Program-made: the position numbers and the translations under genes | Source: Thermoproteota archaeon | GTDB taxonomy: Archaea; Korarchaeota; Korarchaeia; Korarchaeales; Korarchaeaceae | Assembly: GCA_027491395.1 (NCBI GenBank) | Contig: JAOZFI010000039.1 | Coordinates: 73,147-115,043 of the forward strand | DNA: 41,897 nucleotides | Reading direction: 5' to 3' | The notes under the pieces: model-generated | What the model saw: the letters and a program-made list of their open reading frames with translations, nothing else | Told to the model about the DNA's origin: nothing | Database searches by the model: none | Shown: piece by piece, positions 19,758 through 26,940 of the stretch | Numbering within the stretch: position 1 is the first letter of the stretch | Layout of the letters: each line of letters opens with the position of its first letter

Positions 19758-20771
19758 TCACATACGTTCCAGCACGGCCTCAGCGACCTCGAAGGTTGTG
19801 GCATTCCCCCCGAGATCGGGGGTCAGCACACCATCCTTAACGGCCCTCTCCACCGCTTCGCGCATCTTCCTCCCTATATCATCGAGCCTTCCTTCCCTAT
19901 ACTTGATTCCCAACCATTCGAGCATCATGGAGGCCGCCAATATCGTTCCTAGGGGATTGGCTATTCCCCTTCCAGCTATGTCCTCCGCGGTCCCATGGAT
20001 GGGTTCGAAGGCGGCATACTCATCTCCTATTTGCGCCGAGCCGCAGAGTCCCAAGCTGCCGATCACCCCGGCGGCCACGTCCGAGAGTATATCCCCATAT
20101 AAATTGGGGAGGAGCATCACGTCGAAGGGACGATCGACCTTCACGAGCCTGTAGGCAGCGGCATCCACTATGTAATCATCCGCTTCAACGCTGGGATGTT
20201 TGGAGGCCACGTGATAGAACTCCTCGAGGAAGAGGCCGTCGCTAACCTTCAAGACGTTTTTCTTGTGGATGGCCGTGACCTTGGCCCTGCCCTCCCTCTC
20301 AGCGAGTCGGAAGGCGAACTCCGCTATCCTCCTGGCGCCTCTTCGAGTTATCACCCTCCTGGTAACAGCCACATCCCCCCGGAGCTCCTCCTCACCTGAG
20401 TACAAACCTTCTACGTTCTCTCTTACCATCACAAGATCCATGCGCCTGAGGGATATGCCATCATAACTCTTGAAGGGTCGTATGTTTGCGTATAGATCGA
20501 ACTCCCTCCTGATTCTCAGGTTAACGCTCGGATAGCTCCTCCCCTTGGTGGGGGTGGCAATCGGGCCCTTGAGAAGGGCGTCACTCTCCCTCAACTTATC
20601 CATCCCGCCCTCCTCCATTGGCAGCCCGGTCTCATTGAAGTAGGCCTTGCCGGCCCTTACCTCCACGAACTCCGCATCCACGACCCTTTCCAGTAGGGAG
20701 AGAGTGGCGTCAATGACCTCGGGTCCCACGCCGTCGCCCCTTATCACCGCTATCCTGGGCCTCAAGCCCAT
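19758..20771 (-). CDS. NAD-type isocitrate (or homoisocitrate/isopropylmalate) dehydrogenase
   Basis: 337 residues from the ATG at 20771, which overlaps the preceding TGA; a GTG at 20774 adds one residue. It is a beta-decarboxylating dehydrogenase. In the numbering of the longer form, Ser83-x-Asn85-x3-Arg89 and Arg99 occupy the positions that hold isocitrate's gamma-carboxylate (Ser113/Asn115/Arg119 in E. coli). LeuB has hydrophobic residues there. The cofactor loop His-Gly-Thr-Ala-Glu-Asp265-Ile266 has the Asp/Ile of NAD enzymes. It oxidises (2R,3S)-isocitrate to 2-oxoglutarate if this reading is right. It is last in an operon with a hydro-lyase pair and a citrate-synthase-like enzyme. Confidence 0.85.
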   Translation of the reverse strand: MGLRPRIAVIRGDGVGPEVIDATLSLLERVVDAEFVEVRAGKAYFNETGLPMEEGGMDKLRESDALLKGPIATPTKGRSYPSVNLRIRREFDLYANIRPFKSYDGISLRRMDLVMVRENVEGLYSGEEELRGDVAVTRRVITRRGARRIAEFAFRLAEREGRAKVTAIHKKNVLKVSDGLFLEEFYHVASKHPSVEADDYIVDAAAYRLVKVDRPFDVMLLPNLYGDILSDVAAGVIGSLGLCGSAQIGDEYAAFEPIHGTAEDIAGRGIANPLGTILAASMMLEWLGIKYREGRLDDIGRKMREAVERAVKDGVLTPDLGGNATTFEVAEAVLERM

Positions 20772-21268
20772 CACTCCCAGGGCAGTTTCCCGTGCCTCTT
20801 GTAGTAGGACTCTATTCCTCCCTCCTCGAGCAGCGACATTATCATCGGTGGGAACGGCTTGAAGTTCGCCTCCGTTCCCTTGGAGAGGTCCCTGACGGTG
20901 CCCTCTCGTAAGTCGACTTCCATCTCGTCACCATCCTCTGCCTCTACCCTCGCCTCCACTACGGGAAGGCCCACGTTTATCGCGTTCCTGTAGAAGATCC
21001 TCGCGAAGCTCTCGGCCACGACAGCACCAACTCCCACGAGCTTGAGGAGTCTAGCGGCATGCTCCCTACTCGATCCGTATCCGAAATTCCTTCCGGCCAC
21101 TATAATGTCATTGGGCCTGACCCTCTCGCTGAACCCGGGTATGAGATCATTGAACACGTACTGCCTCATCTCCTCTAGGGTCCTGACCTTGTACTTGAGC
21201 CTGCCCGGGATTATGTGATCCGTGGTAACGTGATCCCCCAATCTCCAAGCCCTGCCCCTGATCCTCAT
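20771..21268 (-). CDS. aconitase/homoaconitase-type hydro-lyase small subunit (LeuD-like)
   Basis: 165 residues from the ATG at 21268, which overlaps the large-subunit TGA (ATGA). A longer frame to 21454 lies inside the large-subunit gene and is discarded. The swivel domain shows Asp-His-Val-Thr-Thr-Asp-His-Ile-Ile-Pro-Gly-Arg, then Arg-Asn-Phe-Gly-Tyr-Gly-Ser-Ser-Arg-Glu-His-Ala-Ala. The Thr-Asp-His-Ile form resembles aconitases, where LeuD usually has Thr-Asp-x-Ile-Ile-Pro. The specificity loop after Gly-Arg (Leu-Lys-Tyr-Lys) differs from the usual YLRT of homoaconitase and YLVY/M of isopropylmalate isomerase. Partner of the large subunit just upstream. Confidence 0.88.
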   Translation of the reverse strand: MRIRGRAWRLGDHVTTDHIIPGRLKYKVRTLEEMRQYVFNDLIPGFSERVRPNDIIVAGRNFGYGSSREHAARLLKLVGVGAVVAESFARIFYRNAINVGLPVVEARVEAEDGDEMEVDLREGTVRDLSKGTEANFKPFPPMIMSLLEEGGIESYYKRHGKLPWE

Positions 21269-22500
21269 GATAGCAACCTCCTCGGATCGGTAAGCTGTCC
21301 CCTCACAGCGGTCGCTGCTGCCGTCACCGGGGAAGCTAGGTATATCTGGCTGGACGGGTGACCCATCCTTCCCGGGAAGTTCCTGGTGGAGGTAGAAACC
21401 ACCACCTCCTCCGGACCGAGCACTCCCATGTGGGCTCCTATGCACGGTCCACATGTGGGGGGACCTATCACGCAGCCAGCCTCCGTCAACTCAGCAAGGA
21501 TGCCCGACTCTATTAGGGTCATGTACACCTCCTTAGACGCCGGGGCCGCGATGCACCTCACCCCCTTCTTGACCCTGTTCCCCCTGAGCACCCTGGCCGC
21601 CTGCAGGAAGTCCTCGAATCTCCCTCCTGAGCAGCTGCCGATGAACACCTCGTTGACATCCACTCCCTCCATCTCCTCTACGGGCCTAACATTATCCAAA
21701 TTTCCGGGGAGCGCCACATTCGGCTGGATTTCCCGGGCATTGAATACGATCTCATCCCTGTAGTCAGCATGGGGATCCGGCTGGAGGGGCTCCGCCTCGA
21801 CACCCCTCTCCCTCAACCATCTGAGGGTCACACCGTCAGCTGGCACCAGCCCTACCTTGGCCCCCATCTCGACGCTCATGTTAGAGAGCACCGCCCTTGA
21901 ATCCACGCTCATCTCCTCCACTACCGATCCTAGAAACTCCACTGCCTTGTAATTCGCTCCATCGCTTCCCAATCTCCCTATTATCTCGAGAATTACGTCC
22001 TTCGCCATGACACCATCCTCCAGTTTCCCCTCTACAGTGATCGCCATCGTCTCGGGAACCCTCAACCAGATCCTCCCTCTAGCCATGGCTATCGCCGCGT
22101 CAGTGCTCCCCACTCCTGTGGCGAAGGCCCCGTAGGCTCCTAAGGTCACTGTGTGGCTGTCGGCCCCTAGAACCACCATCCCAGGCCTGACTAACCCAGC
22201 CTCGGGGATGACTTGGTGGCTTATCCCGTTCCCCACATCGAATATCTTGATACCGTGCCTTGAAGCGAAGGCCCTCATCTGAATGTGCAGCGCCGCCGCC
22301 TCGGCATGCGGAGCTGGAGCCGCGTGATCTATGGTGAACACCACGTTCCCCGATACAGAATCAAATCCTAGGCCCTCGAGCACGTCTATGGCGAGGGGCG
22401 CGGTGCCGTCGTGGGCGTACACCAGATCCACATTAACTACCACGTGCTCGCCAGCCTCCACATCCCTCCCCAGCTTCGAGGAGAGTATCTTCTCGGTCAT
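21265..22500 (-). CDS. aconitase/homoaconitase-type hydro-lyase large subunit (LeuC-like)
   Basis: 411 residues from the ATG at 22500, overlapping the preceding TGA. The [4Fe-4S] ligands are the Cys in Gly-Ser-Cys-Ser-Gly-Gly and the pair in Cys-Gly-Pro-Cys (within Pro-Pro-Thr-Cys-Gly-Pro-Cys-Ile-Gly). Gly-Ala-Asp-Ser-His-Thr-Val-Thr-x-Gly and Asp-His are also as in the family. Split LeuC/HacA-type enzymes serve in leucine, lysine or citrate pathways. Here the neighbours (citrate-synthase-like enzyme and isocitrate-type dehydrogenase) favour citrate to isocitrate. It forms the active enzyme with the small subunit. Confidence 0.9.
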   Translation of the reverse strand: MTEKILSSKLGRDVEAGEHVVVNVDLVYAHDGTAPLAIDVLEGLGFDSVSGNVVFTIDHAAPAPHAEAAALHIQMRAFASRHGIKIFDVGNGISHQVIPEAGLVRPGMVVLGADSHTVTLGAYGAFATGVGSTDAAIAMARGRIWLRVPETMAITVEGKLEDGVMAKDVILEIIGRLGSDGANYKAVEFLGSVVEEMSVDSRAVLSNMSVEMGAKVGLVPADGVTLRWLRERGVEAEPLQPDPHADYRDEIVFNAREIQPNVALPGNLDNVRPVEEMEGVDVNEVFIGSCSGGRFEDFLQAARVLRGNRVKKGVRCIAAPASKEVYMTLIESGILAELTEAGCVIGPPTCGPCIGAHMGVLGPEEVVVSTSTRNFPGRMGHPSSQIYLASPVTAAATAVRGQLTDPRRLLS

Positions 22501-23792
22501 CGTCCCTCCCAAACCTCGATCCCCTCCACCAGCTCAGGTACATATCTTCTCAGGATCCCCAGCACCTCCTCATCACTCAGAGGCTCGGTCCTCCCACCTT
22601 CAAAGGAATTCAGGACCTCTCTATAAGCTATGTCTAAACGAGGATCTCCCTTCAGGGACATCCAGTCCTTGACCCCAGCCTTCTTCACGAGCCAGTATAT
22701 CAGACCAGCTCTTCCAGAGTATGGCGTGATCTCCACATCGTAGGGTATTCCGAGCACCTCCTCGGGATCGAATGGCAGGTAAATGGCAGGATTCTTGAGC
22801 AGACCGTCGATGTGTATCCCCGCCTTGGTCCTGAACGCGTTCTCCCCTAATATTGGGTAGAAGACCGGTACGTGGAAACCCATCCTCAGGAAGAGGTCCC
22901 TCGCCTCTCTCAGCGCTTTCAGATTGAGGGGCGACCCCTTCACCAGCTGGGCGTGGAAGAGGGCCATGGCTTCAAGAGGGCAGTTACCTGCCCTCTCCCC
23001 TATGCCGAGGAGGGTGCAGTTGGACAGGGAGGCCCCGTACACCCAGGCGGCGAGGTGGTTGGCCACGACCAAGTGGAAATCGTTGTGCCCGTGAAACTCC
23101 AATTGAGTGCTCTTCAACCCGAGATCATCCAGCAGGAGCCTTATCAGCCTCGGTATACTCCTGGGGAGCGGAGCCTCGACGAACGGCAGTCCCATGCCCA
23201 GCGTGTCGGAGAGCTTGAACCCAACCTCCGTACCGTGCCTCTCAGCCAGCCTCAGCACCTCATCCAAGAAGGGGAGGAGGAACCCGTAAACATCACACCT
23301 CGTTATATCCTCCATGGCCACCTTGAGCTTCAGGCCCATCTTCAGTCCCTCCTCCACCGCCCTGAGGTACTTGGCCTTGGCCGTCTCCCTGTCCATCCCC
23401 AGCTTGTGGACTATATGGTAGTCGGATACAGAGGTGAGGACTATCGTCTCATCCAATCCCGCCTCCTTGACCAGTCTAAGATCCTCCAGCCTGGCCCTGA
23501 CCCACCCTATGGGCCTAGGATACGTGGCGTAGTCCTTTATCCTCCTTATGACCTCCCTGTCCTTTCTAGTGTAGGGAAAGAGCTCAATGTCCCTAACAAC
23601 GCCGCTCCCATTATCCAGCTCAACGAGAACCTCGTAGATGGCCATCGCTTCCTCGATTGTGAAGGGTCTGCTCCCCTGCTGCCCATCCCTCAGCGTGGTA
23701 TCGGTCAGTATGAGCTCGTGAGTCGGAGGTCTCCTGAAAAATCTCGGAACGCCCAGCTCGGGGAAGAACCAGCTCGGATCGGACGCCCCCAT
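22497..23792 (-). CDS. Re-citrate synthase-like / homocitrate synthase-family enzyme
   Basis: 431 residues from the ATG at 23792. A frame from 23840 exists, but its first codons overlap a TATA box (23831-23837), whereas 23792 has GGTGAAAGG four bases upstream. It is an HMGL/DRE-TIM barrel enzyme: Asp-Thr-Thr-Leu-Arg-Asp-Gly-Gln-Gln (31-39), His-Gly-His-Asn metal motif, and Leu-Gly-Ile-Gly-Glu-Arg-Ala-Gly-Asn-Cys-Pro-Leu-Glu. The Thr-Ser-Val-Ser-Asp-Tyr-His-Ile segment, the Pro-Arg-Ser-Ile-Pro-Arg-Leu-Ile segment and the missing C-terminal regulatory domain match, as I recall, Re-citrate synthase of anaerobes better than LeuA or LysS. It would condense oxaloacetate with acetyl-CoA. Homocitrate or citramalate synthesis are alternatives. 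Confidence 0.8.
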   Translation of the reverse strand: MGASDPSWFFPELGVPRFFRRPPTHELILTDTTLRDGQQGSRPFTIEEAMAIYEVLVELDNGSGVVRDIELFPYTRKDREVIRRIKDYATYPRPIGWVRARLEDLRLVKEAGLDETIVLTSVSDYHIVHKLGMDRETAKAKYLRAVEEGLKMGLKLKVAMEDITRCDVYGFLLPFLDEVLRLAERHGTEVGFKLSDTLGMGLPFVEAPLPRSIPRLIRLLLDDLGLKSTQLEFHGHNDFHLVVANHLAAWVYGASLSNCTLLGIGERAGNCPLEAMALFHAQLVKGSPLNLKALREARDLFLRMGFHVPVFYPILGENAFRTKAGIHIDGLLKNPAIYLPFDPEEVLGIPYDVEITPYSGRAGLIYWLVKKAGVKDWMSLKGDPRLDIAYREVLNSFEGGRTEPLSDEEVLGILRRYVPELVEGIEVWEGR

Positions 23793-23838: not shown

Positions 23839-23943
23839 ATTCCTTTTATCGTCGCATATTATCCGAAAATCGAATATAGCGGGCGTGAAACTTGTATAGT
23901 CGTAAAACTAAGGGTGCTACGTCTCTCGTCTAATTGCGTTTGA

Positions 23944-23970: not shown

Positions 23971-25563
23971 TCATGCGGCCCCCACAGGAGCAGGAGTAGG
24001 TACGGGCCTCCTTCTAAGGAGGTAGACAGCCGAAATTATTGCGGCTGCACCCACTATTCCCAATCCCAAAACTGTGGGATCTAGCTGGGGCCTCTCCACC
24101 GTCACGGTCCTCACGGAGCTCACGGTCCGGGTTACGGTGACTGTCTTGGGCTGCTGGATCGTCTGGGTCCGCGTGGCCGGGGCTCGGGCCTGAGCGGTCT
24201 GGATGGGCGGTCCCTTCACCTCAACCACTATGTCCGTGGTGTTAACGCAGCCGCAGTCTTCAGCCTTCGCTATCAGGGTGGCCGTGTACTCCCCGGGCGG
24301 GGCGTCCCTCAAAGTGAGGTTAATTGATCCCAGCTCACCAACCCTCAGTTTGGCTGGTAAGGAATATGAAATGCCGGATGGTAATCCTACCAGCGTCAGG
24401 ATCGCCTCATTCACGTCAGGTGAGTTGAGAATCACGACGAGCTCTGACTCAGGATTGTCCTCTGTAAGAACCACGTGGCTCGGCCTCACGTCAATCGTTA
24501 TCTCGCCCACGGTTCTCTCGACGAGTATCATCACCTGCCTGCTCTTGAGGAGCTCCTCCTCCCTGTACAGCTCAACGCTCATCCCATAGGTACCCGGGCT
24601 GGTTCCCTTTGGGACGGTGACCCAGAGGTCGAGGTGGCTGGTCTTAGACAGTCTGCTGGGATAGCGGCTCACGTACCACCCCGGGGGCGGGACGACCCTC
24701 AGGGTCAGGGGTTCCGTCGTCTCCCCTCCGGTTATCCCCACCGTTACTCTGATGTGGAACGTCTCATCCGGCTTTACTTTCACCGTCACGGGATACACGA
24801 TGAGATTGATCTCCTCCTCGCTCACCCCCCCGACGGTGAGCGTGGCGTAAGCCCTGTCGCAATAGCCATCGTAGCAACCCTCGACGATGATGCTGTAGTT
24901 CCCCGGACTCATTCCCGATGTGTCTATGGTTAGGGTGGATGTGTAGATGTAGCAGGGGATGGCAGGACAGCTGCAGGATGTCGAGCTAGGGCACATGGGG
25001 TTCGGGTCGAAGGTGTGACTGGCGCAGGCCGGGCATATCAGGGAGAGGTATATGGGGTGATTGAAGCCGTAGAAGGGAGCTGCCTTGACCGTAAAGACGG
25101 CCTTATCTCCCCTGCTCACCGTGAGCGAGCTTGGAGATATGGAAAGCTCGAACTCAGGCTCGTAAGGCGGCAGGACCTCCAAGGTCACGTCGACGTAAAC
25201 GTTCTGATCCGTAAGGGGATCCCTTCCCCTCACCGTGATCGTGTACACGCCGGGTGGCGTGTAAATAGAGGTTCTCACCTCCATGTCTGAGTCAATGTCT
25301 CCCGTGGGGTTCAAAGGATTGTCGGAGAAGACTACCGAGACGGCAGGAGGTTCGAACAGGGCCCTGAGGTAGACATCATTGGAGTAGCCGGGTGTGATGG
25401 TGATCAGGGTTACGGTGAAGTGGGCAGTCTCACCGGCTCTCACCCTCCTGTATGTGGGGCTCACGTCCAGGTCGAAGTCGGCCGCTCTCACTTCAATCAG
25501 GGCGGTGGAGAGAATCGTCGCGAGTACCAGTACCAGCAGGAAGAGTGAAATTCTGTTACCCAT
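23971..25563 (-). CDS. surface-anchored multi-domain Ig-like protein
   Basis: 530 residues from the ATG at 25563; a TATA-like stretch (CATTTTTATT, about 25584-25593) makes this a leaderless start. Signal peptide (1-27), then about four beta-sandwich repeats of about 105 residues, each with 'G..a.f.v' and 'p.G.Y.i.v' strands, and a Thr/Arg/Val-rich stalk (about 460-495). A C-terminal membrane helix and Arg tail follow. One domain near residues 178-200 carries six cysteines, including Cys-Pro-Ala-Cys, likely disulfides. Related in style to COG1470-type archaeal surface proteins. It lies between the 2-oxoglutarate operon and glutamine synthetase without evident link. Confidence 0.78.
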   Translation of the reverse strand: MGNRISLFLLVLVLATILSTALIEVRAADFDLDVSPTYRRVRAGETAHFTVTLITITPGYSNDVYLRALFEPPAVSVVFSDNPLNPTGDIDSDMEVRTSIYTPPGVYTITVRGRDPLTDQNVYVDVTLEVLPPYEPEFELSISPSSLTVSRGDKAVFTVKAAPFYGFNHPIYLSLICPACASHTFDPNPMCPSSTSCSCPAIPCYIYTSTLTIDTSGMSPGNYSIIVEGCYDGYCDRAYATLTVGGVSEEEINLIVYPVTVKVKPDETFHIRVTVGITGGETTEPLTLRVVPPPGWYVSRYPSRLSKTSHLDLWVTVPKGTSPGTYGMSVELYREEELLKSRQVMILVERTVGEITIDVRPSHVVLTEDNPESELVVILNSPDVNEAILTLVGLPSGISYSLPAKLRVGELGSINLTLRDAPPGEYTATLIAKAEDCGCVNTTDIVVEVKGPPIQTAQARAPATRTQTIQQPKTVTVTRTVSSVRTVTVERPQLDPTVLGLGIVGAAAIISAVYLLRRRPVPTPAPVGAA

Positions 25564-25644
25564 CTTCAAGTAACTGCCCGTGTCAGAATAAAAATGTAGC
25601 CAGATAAAGGGCCGATCCGGCCAGAGATCGCGTCAATCAACGTA

Positions 25645-26940
25645 TCATACGCTCAAATATGCTCTGTACTCGGCCTCGCTTGGCCAAGATCCGATCTCCG
25701 ATGCCTCCTTCCTCTTGATCTCGATGTAGGACTCCAAGGTGGAGGAGTCGAACACGCCGCTCAGGTAGGCGTTATCAGATTCGAGCTCGTCCAAGGCCTC
25801 GTGCAGGGTTCTCGGGAGCCTCTTGGCCTTTAGCCCGTGGGTGTAGGCGTTCACATCGACCGGATCTCCCGGATCGACCTTCCTACTTATGCCATCCAAG
25901 CCAGCGGCGAACGTGGCGGCGAAAGCTAGGTAGGGGTTACAGCTCGGATCTGGAACGCGGAACTCCACTCTTTTTGAATTCTTCCCACCCTTCCTGTACA
26001 CGGGAACTCTTATTGCGGCACTCCTATTAGCCCTGCCCCAGATCGCGTATATAGGGGCCTCAAAGCCCGGGACCAAACGCTTGTAGCTGTTGACTGTAGG
26101 CGCGACTATGGCTGCGAGGGAGCCTATGTGCTCGATTATGCCGCCCACGAAGTACCTACCCAGCTGACTCAGTTCAGCATACTCATCGTCCGGATCGTAG
26201 AAGAGGTTTCTACCACCCTCCCATAGACTCAGGTGTAAGTGCATCCCGCTCCCATTGTCCCCGGGAACGGGCTTGGGCATGAACGTGGCTATGAGGCCCA
26301 AATCCCTAGCCACCTCCTTTATACCCCTCTTGACCCTCATCACCTTATCCGCCGCCCTGAGAGGCGTGTCCGCCCTGACCGAGACCTCGGACTGGCCCAC
26401 ACCTACCTCGTGGTGCGTGACCTCCGGTTGCAGGTTCAGGCTCATCAGCTCGTCCATCACCTCGAGCTTGAACTCGTAGAGGGGATCTGAGGGAGAGCTC
26501 AGGTGATAGTTAATTTTGGGAGCATTTCCCCACGCGAAGACAGGTCTCAGGTCCTCGTTGAGGGTCATGAACTCCATCTCGGGGCCGACCATCCCCTTGT
26601 AGCCTTGGGCGGCCAGGAGGTCCTCGGCCCTCTTGGCCACGTATCTAGGGTCCTTGGGGGATCTACCTCCTCCGAAGGGCTCCCATATCTCGCTAAGCAT
26701 TCTGAGTACATCGTCCTTGATCACGGCTGTCTGGGGATCCGGGATGAGCACGGCATCGCTCCACTCTATGACAGAGAGGCCCACGCTGCTGGCATCGAAG
26801 GAACCACCCTTCTTGGATTCGAAGGTTTCCAAGGAGAGGATCTCGCTCCTCAAGGTGCCAGAGAGATCCACGTACTCAAGCTCTACGAATTTGACTCCCT
26901 TTGATGATGCTTCTTTCAACACCTCTTCGAGGGTAAGCAT
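25645..26940 (-). CDS. glnA: glutamine synthetase (GlnA family)
   Basis: 431 residues, near the usual length of archaeal type I enzymes. N-terminal beta-grasp, then catalytic motifs: Gly-Pro-Glu-Met-Glu-Phe (metal glutamates), Asn-Gly-Ser-Gly-Met-His-Leu-His-Leu-Ser (ATP/ammonia site), Asn-Arg-Ser-Ala-Ala-Ile-Arg-Val-Pro, and Phe-Arg-Val-Pro-Asp-Pro-Ser-Cys-Asn-Pro-Tyr-Leu. It makes glutamine from glutamate, ammonia and ATP. No adenylylation-site Tyr motif is visible. The family includes gamma-glutamylamine synthetases, so substrate is likely but not certain. It is a single gene with its own leaderless promoter, next to enzymes yielding 2-oxoglutarate. Confidence 0.87.
   Translation of the reverse strand: MLTLEEVLKEASSKGVKFVELEYVDLSGTLRSEILSLETFESKKGGSFDASSVGLSVIEWSDAVLIPDPQTAVIKDDVLRMLSEIWEPFGGGRSPKDPRYVAKRAEDLLAAQGYKGMVGPEMEFMTLNEDLRPVFAWGNAPKINYHLSSPSDPLYEFKLEVMDELMSLNLQPEVTHHEVGVGQSEVSVRADTPLRAADKVMRVKRGIKEVARDLGLIATFMPKPVPGDNGSGMHLHLSLWEGGRNLFYDPDDEYAELSQLGRYFVGGIIEHIGSLAAIVAPTVNSYKRLVPGFEAPIYAIWGRANRSAAIRVPVYRKGGKNSKRVEFRVPDPSCNPYLAFAATFAAGLDGISRKVDPGDPVDVNAYTHGLKAKRLPRTLHEALDELESDNAYLSGVFDSSTLESYIEIKRKEASEIGSWPSEAEYRAYLSV

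Follow-up and report, generated by a model that had tools for sequence, protein, structure and literature searches.

What four adjacent genes of a Korarchaeaceae archaeon make is the question raised by this locus: whether enzymes resembling those of the leucine and lysine pathways could carry oxaloacetate and acetyl-CoA to 2-oxoglutarate, and whether they would do so in place of an ordinary citrate set or beside one. The window, a 41,897-nucleotide stretch of contig JAOZFI010000039.1, comes from a 1.7 Mb genome (G000) that is 98% complete, and our search of the phylum covered 29 genomes. The features concerned are:

22497..23792, minus strand: synthase of putative Re-citrate synthase type with an HMGL-like barrel, 431 aa (PF00682, clade, conserved catalytic motifs and structure model)
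21265..22500, minus strand: LeuC-type hydro-lyase large subunit, predicted aconitase and/or homoaconitase, 411 aa (TIGR02086)
20771..21268, minus strand: LeuD-type hydro-lyase small subunit with an aconitase-like TDHI, 165 aa (TIGR02087 and loop comparison)
19758..20771, minus strand: NAD-type isocitrate-like dehydrogenase, 337 aa from ATG, 338 from the GTG at 20774
25645..26940, minus strand: glutamine synthetase GlnA, upstream neighbour in the same orientation, outside the operon (TIGR00653, 438 bits, above cut-off)
23971-25569: repeat protein, probably secreted and membrane-anchored, between GlnA and the operon

Organisation of the operon

The initial annotation described four coupled genes in one operon, and all four are present at the coordinates above, with uninterrupted reading frames and successive stop/start overlaps. 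It also saw ATGA overlaps throughout. This is correct for the synthase/large subunit (22500-22497) and large/small subunit (21268-21265) junctions, but the third junction, between the small subunit and the dehydrogenase, reads GTGATG, which can be read as a one-base TGA/ATG overlap or as initiation at GTG. For the synthase, 23792 is the correct start, since the Met there is conserved among orthologues, and close orthologues have Thr in place of the ATG at 23840.

The four-gene arrangement is more than chance, because the synthase is found in 15 of the 16 genomes of the genus, as well as in Methanodesulfokora, and other archaeal families (Desulfurococcales, Ignisphaera, Pyrodictiaceae) show the same four genes in the same order, at 46-58% identity; absences here and below are read from draft genomes. 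Nitrososphaeria and Acidilobaceae have the synthase together with both hydro-lyase subunits. GlnA lies at the same place beside the operon in six loci of the genus. The repeat protein is present in most of the genus genomes examined and was not found in G012.

The synthase and its substrate pocket

The synthase belongs to Pfam PF00682, and the catalytic TLRDGQQ and HGHND are conserved. In a 58-row tree, its family is split by a 100/99 branch from the homocitrate synthases of Thermus and Sulfolobus and from isopropylmalate and citramalate synthases, which places it outside all three groups in the phylogeny that the initial annotation had proposed as a check. Within the tree it shares one clade with the synthases of clostridial synthase-aconitase-IDH operons. 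Operon-linked bacterial relatives, judged to be Re-type by their operon context, stood in the tree for purified enzymes of the Clostridium kluyveri type, and measured against them the synthase is of the Re-citrate synthase type by family placement. The Re-citrate synthase-like segments noted in the initial annotation are borne out in this sense. Arg51-Asp52, W113-x-R115 and His250-x-His252 (numbered from the ATG at 23840) are invariant in the family.

The predicted structure (pLDDT 91) has as its nearest solved fold 6ktq, the Sulfolobus homocitrate synthase, with a TM-score of 0.76, and 6ktq and the Thermus enzyme 2ztj are nearest in sequence and fold among solved structures. A homocitrate synthase is nearest only because the PDB copy showed no closer member of the synthase family. 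The window synthase differs from these two enzymes in its clade, at 25% identity, and it has neither a TLREGEQ motif nor a His at the place of Thermus H72, where Trp113 stands instead. Its scores lie far below the curated homocitrate synthase cut-offs (127.8 vs. 413.55 bits for TIGR02146, 178.5 vs. 462.9 bits for TIGR02660).

Within the synthase family, one side (97/87) holds the bacteria together with Methanomethylicia and a single Nitrososphaerales genome, and the other side holds the archaeal operon synthases. The residue two before the catalytic Glu is His on the bacterial-containing side and Ser, Thr or Ala in the archaeal operon synthases, and Ser, Thr or Ala is also found there in the Thermus and Sulfolobus homocitrate synthases. 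The window pocket reads K-V-A-M-E-D, with Ala175 where the clostridial synthases have His, and so departs from the bacterial R-x-H-x-E-D, a pattern not known as defining. We take this position to be close to the far carboxylate of the substrate, as in the Thermus and yeast enzymes, so that a longer substrate could fit where the residue is smaller. The pocket thus speaks for a rival reading, in which the operon makes homocitrate only and forms the 2-oxoglutarate to 2-oxoadipate arm of LysW lysine synthesis, with a synthase that evolved inside the Re-citrate synthase family. The missing TLREGEQ and H72 histidine, and scores far below every homocitrate synthase cut-off, speak against it.

A split hydro-lyase with an aconitase-like motif

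Both hydro-lyase subunits score above the cut-offs of their families (551 bits for the large subunit with TIGR02086, 177 bits for the small subunit with TIGR02087). The operon-type large subunits fall within the archaeal LeuC radiation, apart from the bacterial monomeric aconitases, so that one synthase family appears to have been joined to different hydro-lyases in bacteria and in archaea. In L069 and L100, both bacterial relatives, the order is synthase, monomeric aconitase, isocitrate-type dehydrogenase, which we take to be the clostridial Re-citrate synthase arrangement. The window shares with them the synthase family, the three-step order and the superfamily of the dehydrogenase, which has S-x-N in both; it differs in that its hydro-lyase is split, a LeuCD-type pair belonging to the archaeal branch of LeuC, where the clostridial operons have a monomeric aconitase of 640 residues, and in a dehydrogenase from a different clade.

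The small subunit carries the Thr-Asp-His-Ile that the initial annotation had called aconitase-like. Its GDHVTTDHI compares with GDRVTTDHIS in the AcnA of the same genome and GDNITTDHIM in the aconitases of bacterial Re-type operons, while leucine-type and other LeuD-type small subunits have TDV, TDL or TDT. The mark is not universal, since two Nitrososphaeria operons have TDLI. The small-subunit loop reads LKYK, which is neither the RSN of aconitase nor the YL-type loop of other small subunits, and is unlike that of IPMI or homoaconitase.

Two further archaeal pairs of this kind were seen. Methanodesulfokora has a second operon-type LeuCD pair (G026:C170, L179:9297-11122) 3' of a transport operon, with no synthase or dehydrogenase beside it, and this pair could separate aconitase and homoaconitase roles. 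In Methanosuratincola (L191:1351-4384) a LeuCD-type hydro-lyase with an RSN loop like that of monomeric aconitases adjoins an NADP-isocitrate dehydrogenase, and is another candidate for an archaeal LeuCD-type aconitase.

The dehydrogenase

Ser83, Asn85 and Arg89, which the initial annotation had matched to isocitrate, and Asp265 and Ile266, matched to NAD, are present as S83-V-N85-LRI-R89 and D265-I266 (numbered from the GTG start), with residue roles carried over from the Thermus and E. coli enzymes. The best PDB matches are the NAD-isocitrate dehydrogenases 6lky and 6m3s, and the protein lies below the curated equivalog cut-offs. The isocitrate motif S-[VI]-N-xxx-R is found in every archaeal operon dehydrogenase examined (18 of 18), including those inside lysine clusters. 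Five dehydrogenases outside such operons, from lysine contexts or of a second non-Leu type, carry Thr in three cases and Ala and Val in one case each at the place of N85 (G001, G002, G045, G044 and G036), and the Thermus homoisocitrate dehydrogenase (HICDH) has G-A-I at the place of the motif. The dehydrogenases of lysine-linked operons thus keep the isocitrate Asn, unlike lysine-linked ones elsewhere, which argues against homocitrate as the only product. The operon dehydrogenases form one clade (97/91), which the tree does not place relative to known IDH and HICDH.

A hydro-lyase split in the LeuCD manner, with a dehydrogenase from the isopropylmalate/isocitrate superfamily, would also suit the elongation of leucine, citramalate or other branched 2-oxoacid precursors. 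However, the dehydrogenase and small-subunit motifs differ from those of LeuB and LeuD in the same genome, and the synthase splits from IPMS and CMS in the tree; we consider such a role very improbable. For leucine itself it was rejected, as a separate leuA-leuC-leuD-leuB operon lies on contig C41.

Other citrate and lysine genes in the genome

The genome of the window also encodes a Si-citrate synthase (contig C45), an AcnA (1407 and 1392 bits against cut-offs of 686 and 945) and an NADP-IDH (585 bits against 484), each on a contig other than that of the operon. A LysW cluster, ArgX-LysY-LysZ-LysW-LysX-LysJ-LysK, lies on C18, again a different contig from the operon. The initial annotation had taken the operon to be the oxidative branch of this organism, replacing the usual set, and had proposed a search for GltA or AcnA, naming LysW genes or another complete citrate set as what would count against its claim. 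Because a complete ordinary citrate set and a LysW lysine/arginine cluster are both there, the reading as sole oxidative branch is not supported, while the synthase placement, the isocitrate motif and the TDHI stand.

By the signatures used for assignment (PMC10433800), LysX has N-A, as does the bifunctional Thermococcus enzyme, and ArgX has G-F. Beside the operon synthase, the HMGL proteins of the genome comprise LeuA and a paralogue of it that has no catalytic residues, and no second homocitrate synthase candidate was found among them, so that a homocitrate/lysine role, alone or in addition to another, is a possible one for the operon. Against homocitrate as the only product, the LysW cluster could instead make ornithine from glutamate.

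The LeuA paralogue (G000:C48, L003:1381-2982; orthologues L169, L170 and L172) is kept across the genus. It has lost the catalytic Arg-Asp, the His-x-His metal site and GERAGN and has kept its full length, including the C-terminal regulatory domain; it is likely to be a conserved pseudoenzyme, perhaps a regulator of LeuA.

Distribution and neighbourhoods in relatives

The synthase and a Si-citrate synthase occur together in nine genomes of the genus, and the persistence of the operon in relatives alongside a Si-citrate synthase suggests that it has a non-redundant job. In G009, G010, G013 and G022, four good-quality genomes from the genus, the synthase is present and no Si-citrate synthase, AcnA or NADP-IDH was found. 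Outside the archaea, a Re-type synthase and a Si-type citrate synthase lie next to each other on opposite strands in two unrelated bacteria, on a Deinococcus plasmid (L028) and in Coatesbacteria (L068), so that the two types can coexist.

Several neighbourhoods link the operon to lysine. In Methanodesulfokora (L042) and three Desulfurococcales (L038, L040 and L044) it is joined to LysY-LysZ, with LysX-J-K divergent alongside, and in L037 LysX overlaps the synthase; the synthase gene lies in the LysW cluster in these five loci and not in the window. An Lrp-like regulator stands between LysZ and the synthase in L040 and L044. These arrangements are like the LysW clusters of Sulfolobus, Thermus and Thermococcus, from which the window differs in the separate contig and in synthase and dehydrogenase motifs that are not those of known homocitrate and homoisocitrate enzymes. 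What appear to be a threonine synthase and an archaeal PEP carboxylase, the latter an oxaloacetate source, come after the operon in Ignisphaera (both named by eye).

LysX accompanies the synthase in all genus genomes except G013, and in nearly all operon-bearing genomes searched, where a single concatenated query of four proteins makes weak matches less certain. With LysX so widespread, its absence could not serve to isolate a citrate role. In G013, where LysX was not found, a frameshift interrupts the hydro-lyase pair and a deletion fuses the two subunits, though this could be an assembly error; with its hydro-lyase broken, this genome argues against a LysX-free citrate operon. The co-occurrence with LysX and the joint decay in G013 both favour homocitrate as the only product, as do the LysY-LysZ and LysX junctions, the Lrp-like regulator, and LysX and ArgX in a genome with no other homocitrate synthase candidate.

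Two Nitrososphaeria, G036 and G037, argue the other way. Each has a homocitrate-synthase-like protein inside the LysW cluster and the Re-type operon elsewhere, and no Si-citrate synthase match was returned by the concatenated four-protein query. The homocitrate-synthase-like name rests on motifs (TLREGEQ, VAHGRA) and place, the best NCBIfam scores being below the curated cut-offs. With that protein in the LysW cluster, the Re-type synthase that persists in these genomes would be free for citrate. LysX of G045 has a LeuCD pair and a dehydrogenase of lysine type beside it.

The LysW linkage in relatives led us at first to favour a pure homocitrate role. The operon Asn, set against lysine-linked dehydrogenases elsewhere, and the separate homocitrate-synthase-like protein of the Nitrososphaeria lowered it, and we now regard it as unlikely, though a serious contender.

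Proposed function

Our best reading, held with some confidence from family placement and motifs, is a biosynthetic 2-oxoacid chain-elongation operon whose core would lead from oxaloacetate to 2-oxoglutarate via Re-citrate. The synthase, as an enzyme of the unusual, anaerobic Re type, would form citrate from oxaloacetate and acetyl-CoA, the split LeuCD-type iron-sulphur hydro-lyase would convert citrate to isocitrate, and the dehydrogenase would oxidise isocitrate with NAD+ to 2-oxoglutarate and CO2. In the genome of the window this would be a second, NAD-linked route beside the set of Si-citrate synthase, AcnA and NADP-IDH. The LysW pathway and the glutamate family would be the most likely users of its product, and a further elongation, from 2-oxoglutarate to 2-oxoadipate for lysine, may also run through the operon.

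For the citrate-forming core we counted the adjoining GlnA, the genus genomes without the Si set, the report that most Desulfurococcales are without a recognised citrate synthase (PMC5556600) and the Re-type activity cited for the archaeon Ignicoccus (PMC12016533). Against it we counted the complete citrate set of the window's genome, LysX without another homocitrate synthase, the LysY-LysZ linkage, G013 and the Ser/Thr/Ala pocket. At the level of the enzymes, the synthase family, Asn85 and TDHI favour citrate and isocitrate; gene neighbourhood, and elimination within the window's genome, favour lysine. One operon might run both elongations, from oxaloacetate to 2-oxoglutarate and on to 2-oxoadipate, and so supply both branches of the LysW pathway, to glutamate/ornithine and to lysine. 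This is a tentative and rather doubtful proposal, to which we give a little under half the likelihood of the citrate-forming core.

A literature search, with most subscription papers outside its scope, returned no prior description of the archaeal operon. It combines a Re-type synthase with a hydro-lyase split in the LeuCD manner, a new variant among archaea: where clostridia join such a synthase to a monomeric aconitase, archaea would join it to a leucine-pathway-type hydro-lyase. The predicted citrate branch is also tied to the LysW lysine/arginine pathway. Most Desulfurococcales and part of the Korarchaeota need 2-oxoglutarate yet have no recognisable citrate synthase, and the conserved operon is a gene-level candidate for its supply. 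If both elongations do run through it, the operon would be the only source of both products in Korarchaeum-type genomes without a Si-citrate synthase, and a living example of the proposed shared ancestral pathway of leucine, lysine and arginine synthesis.
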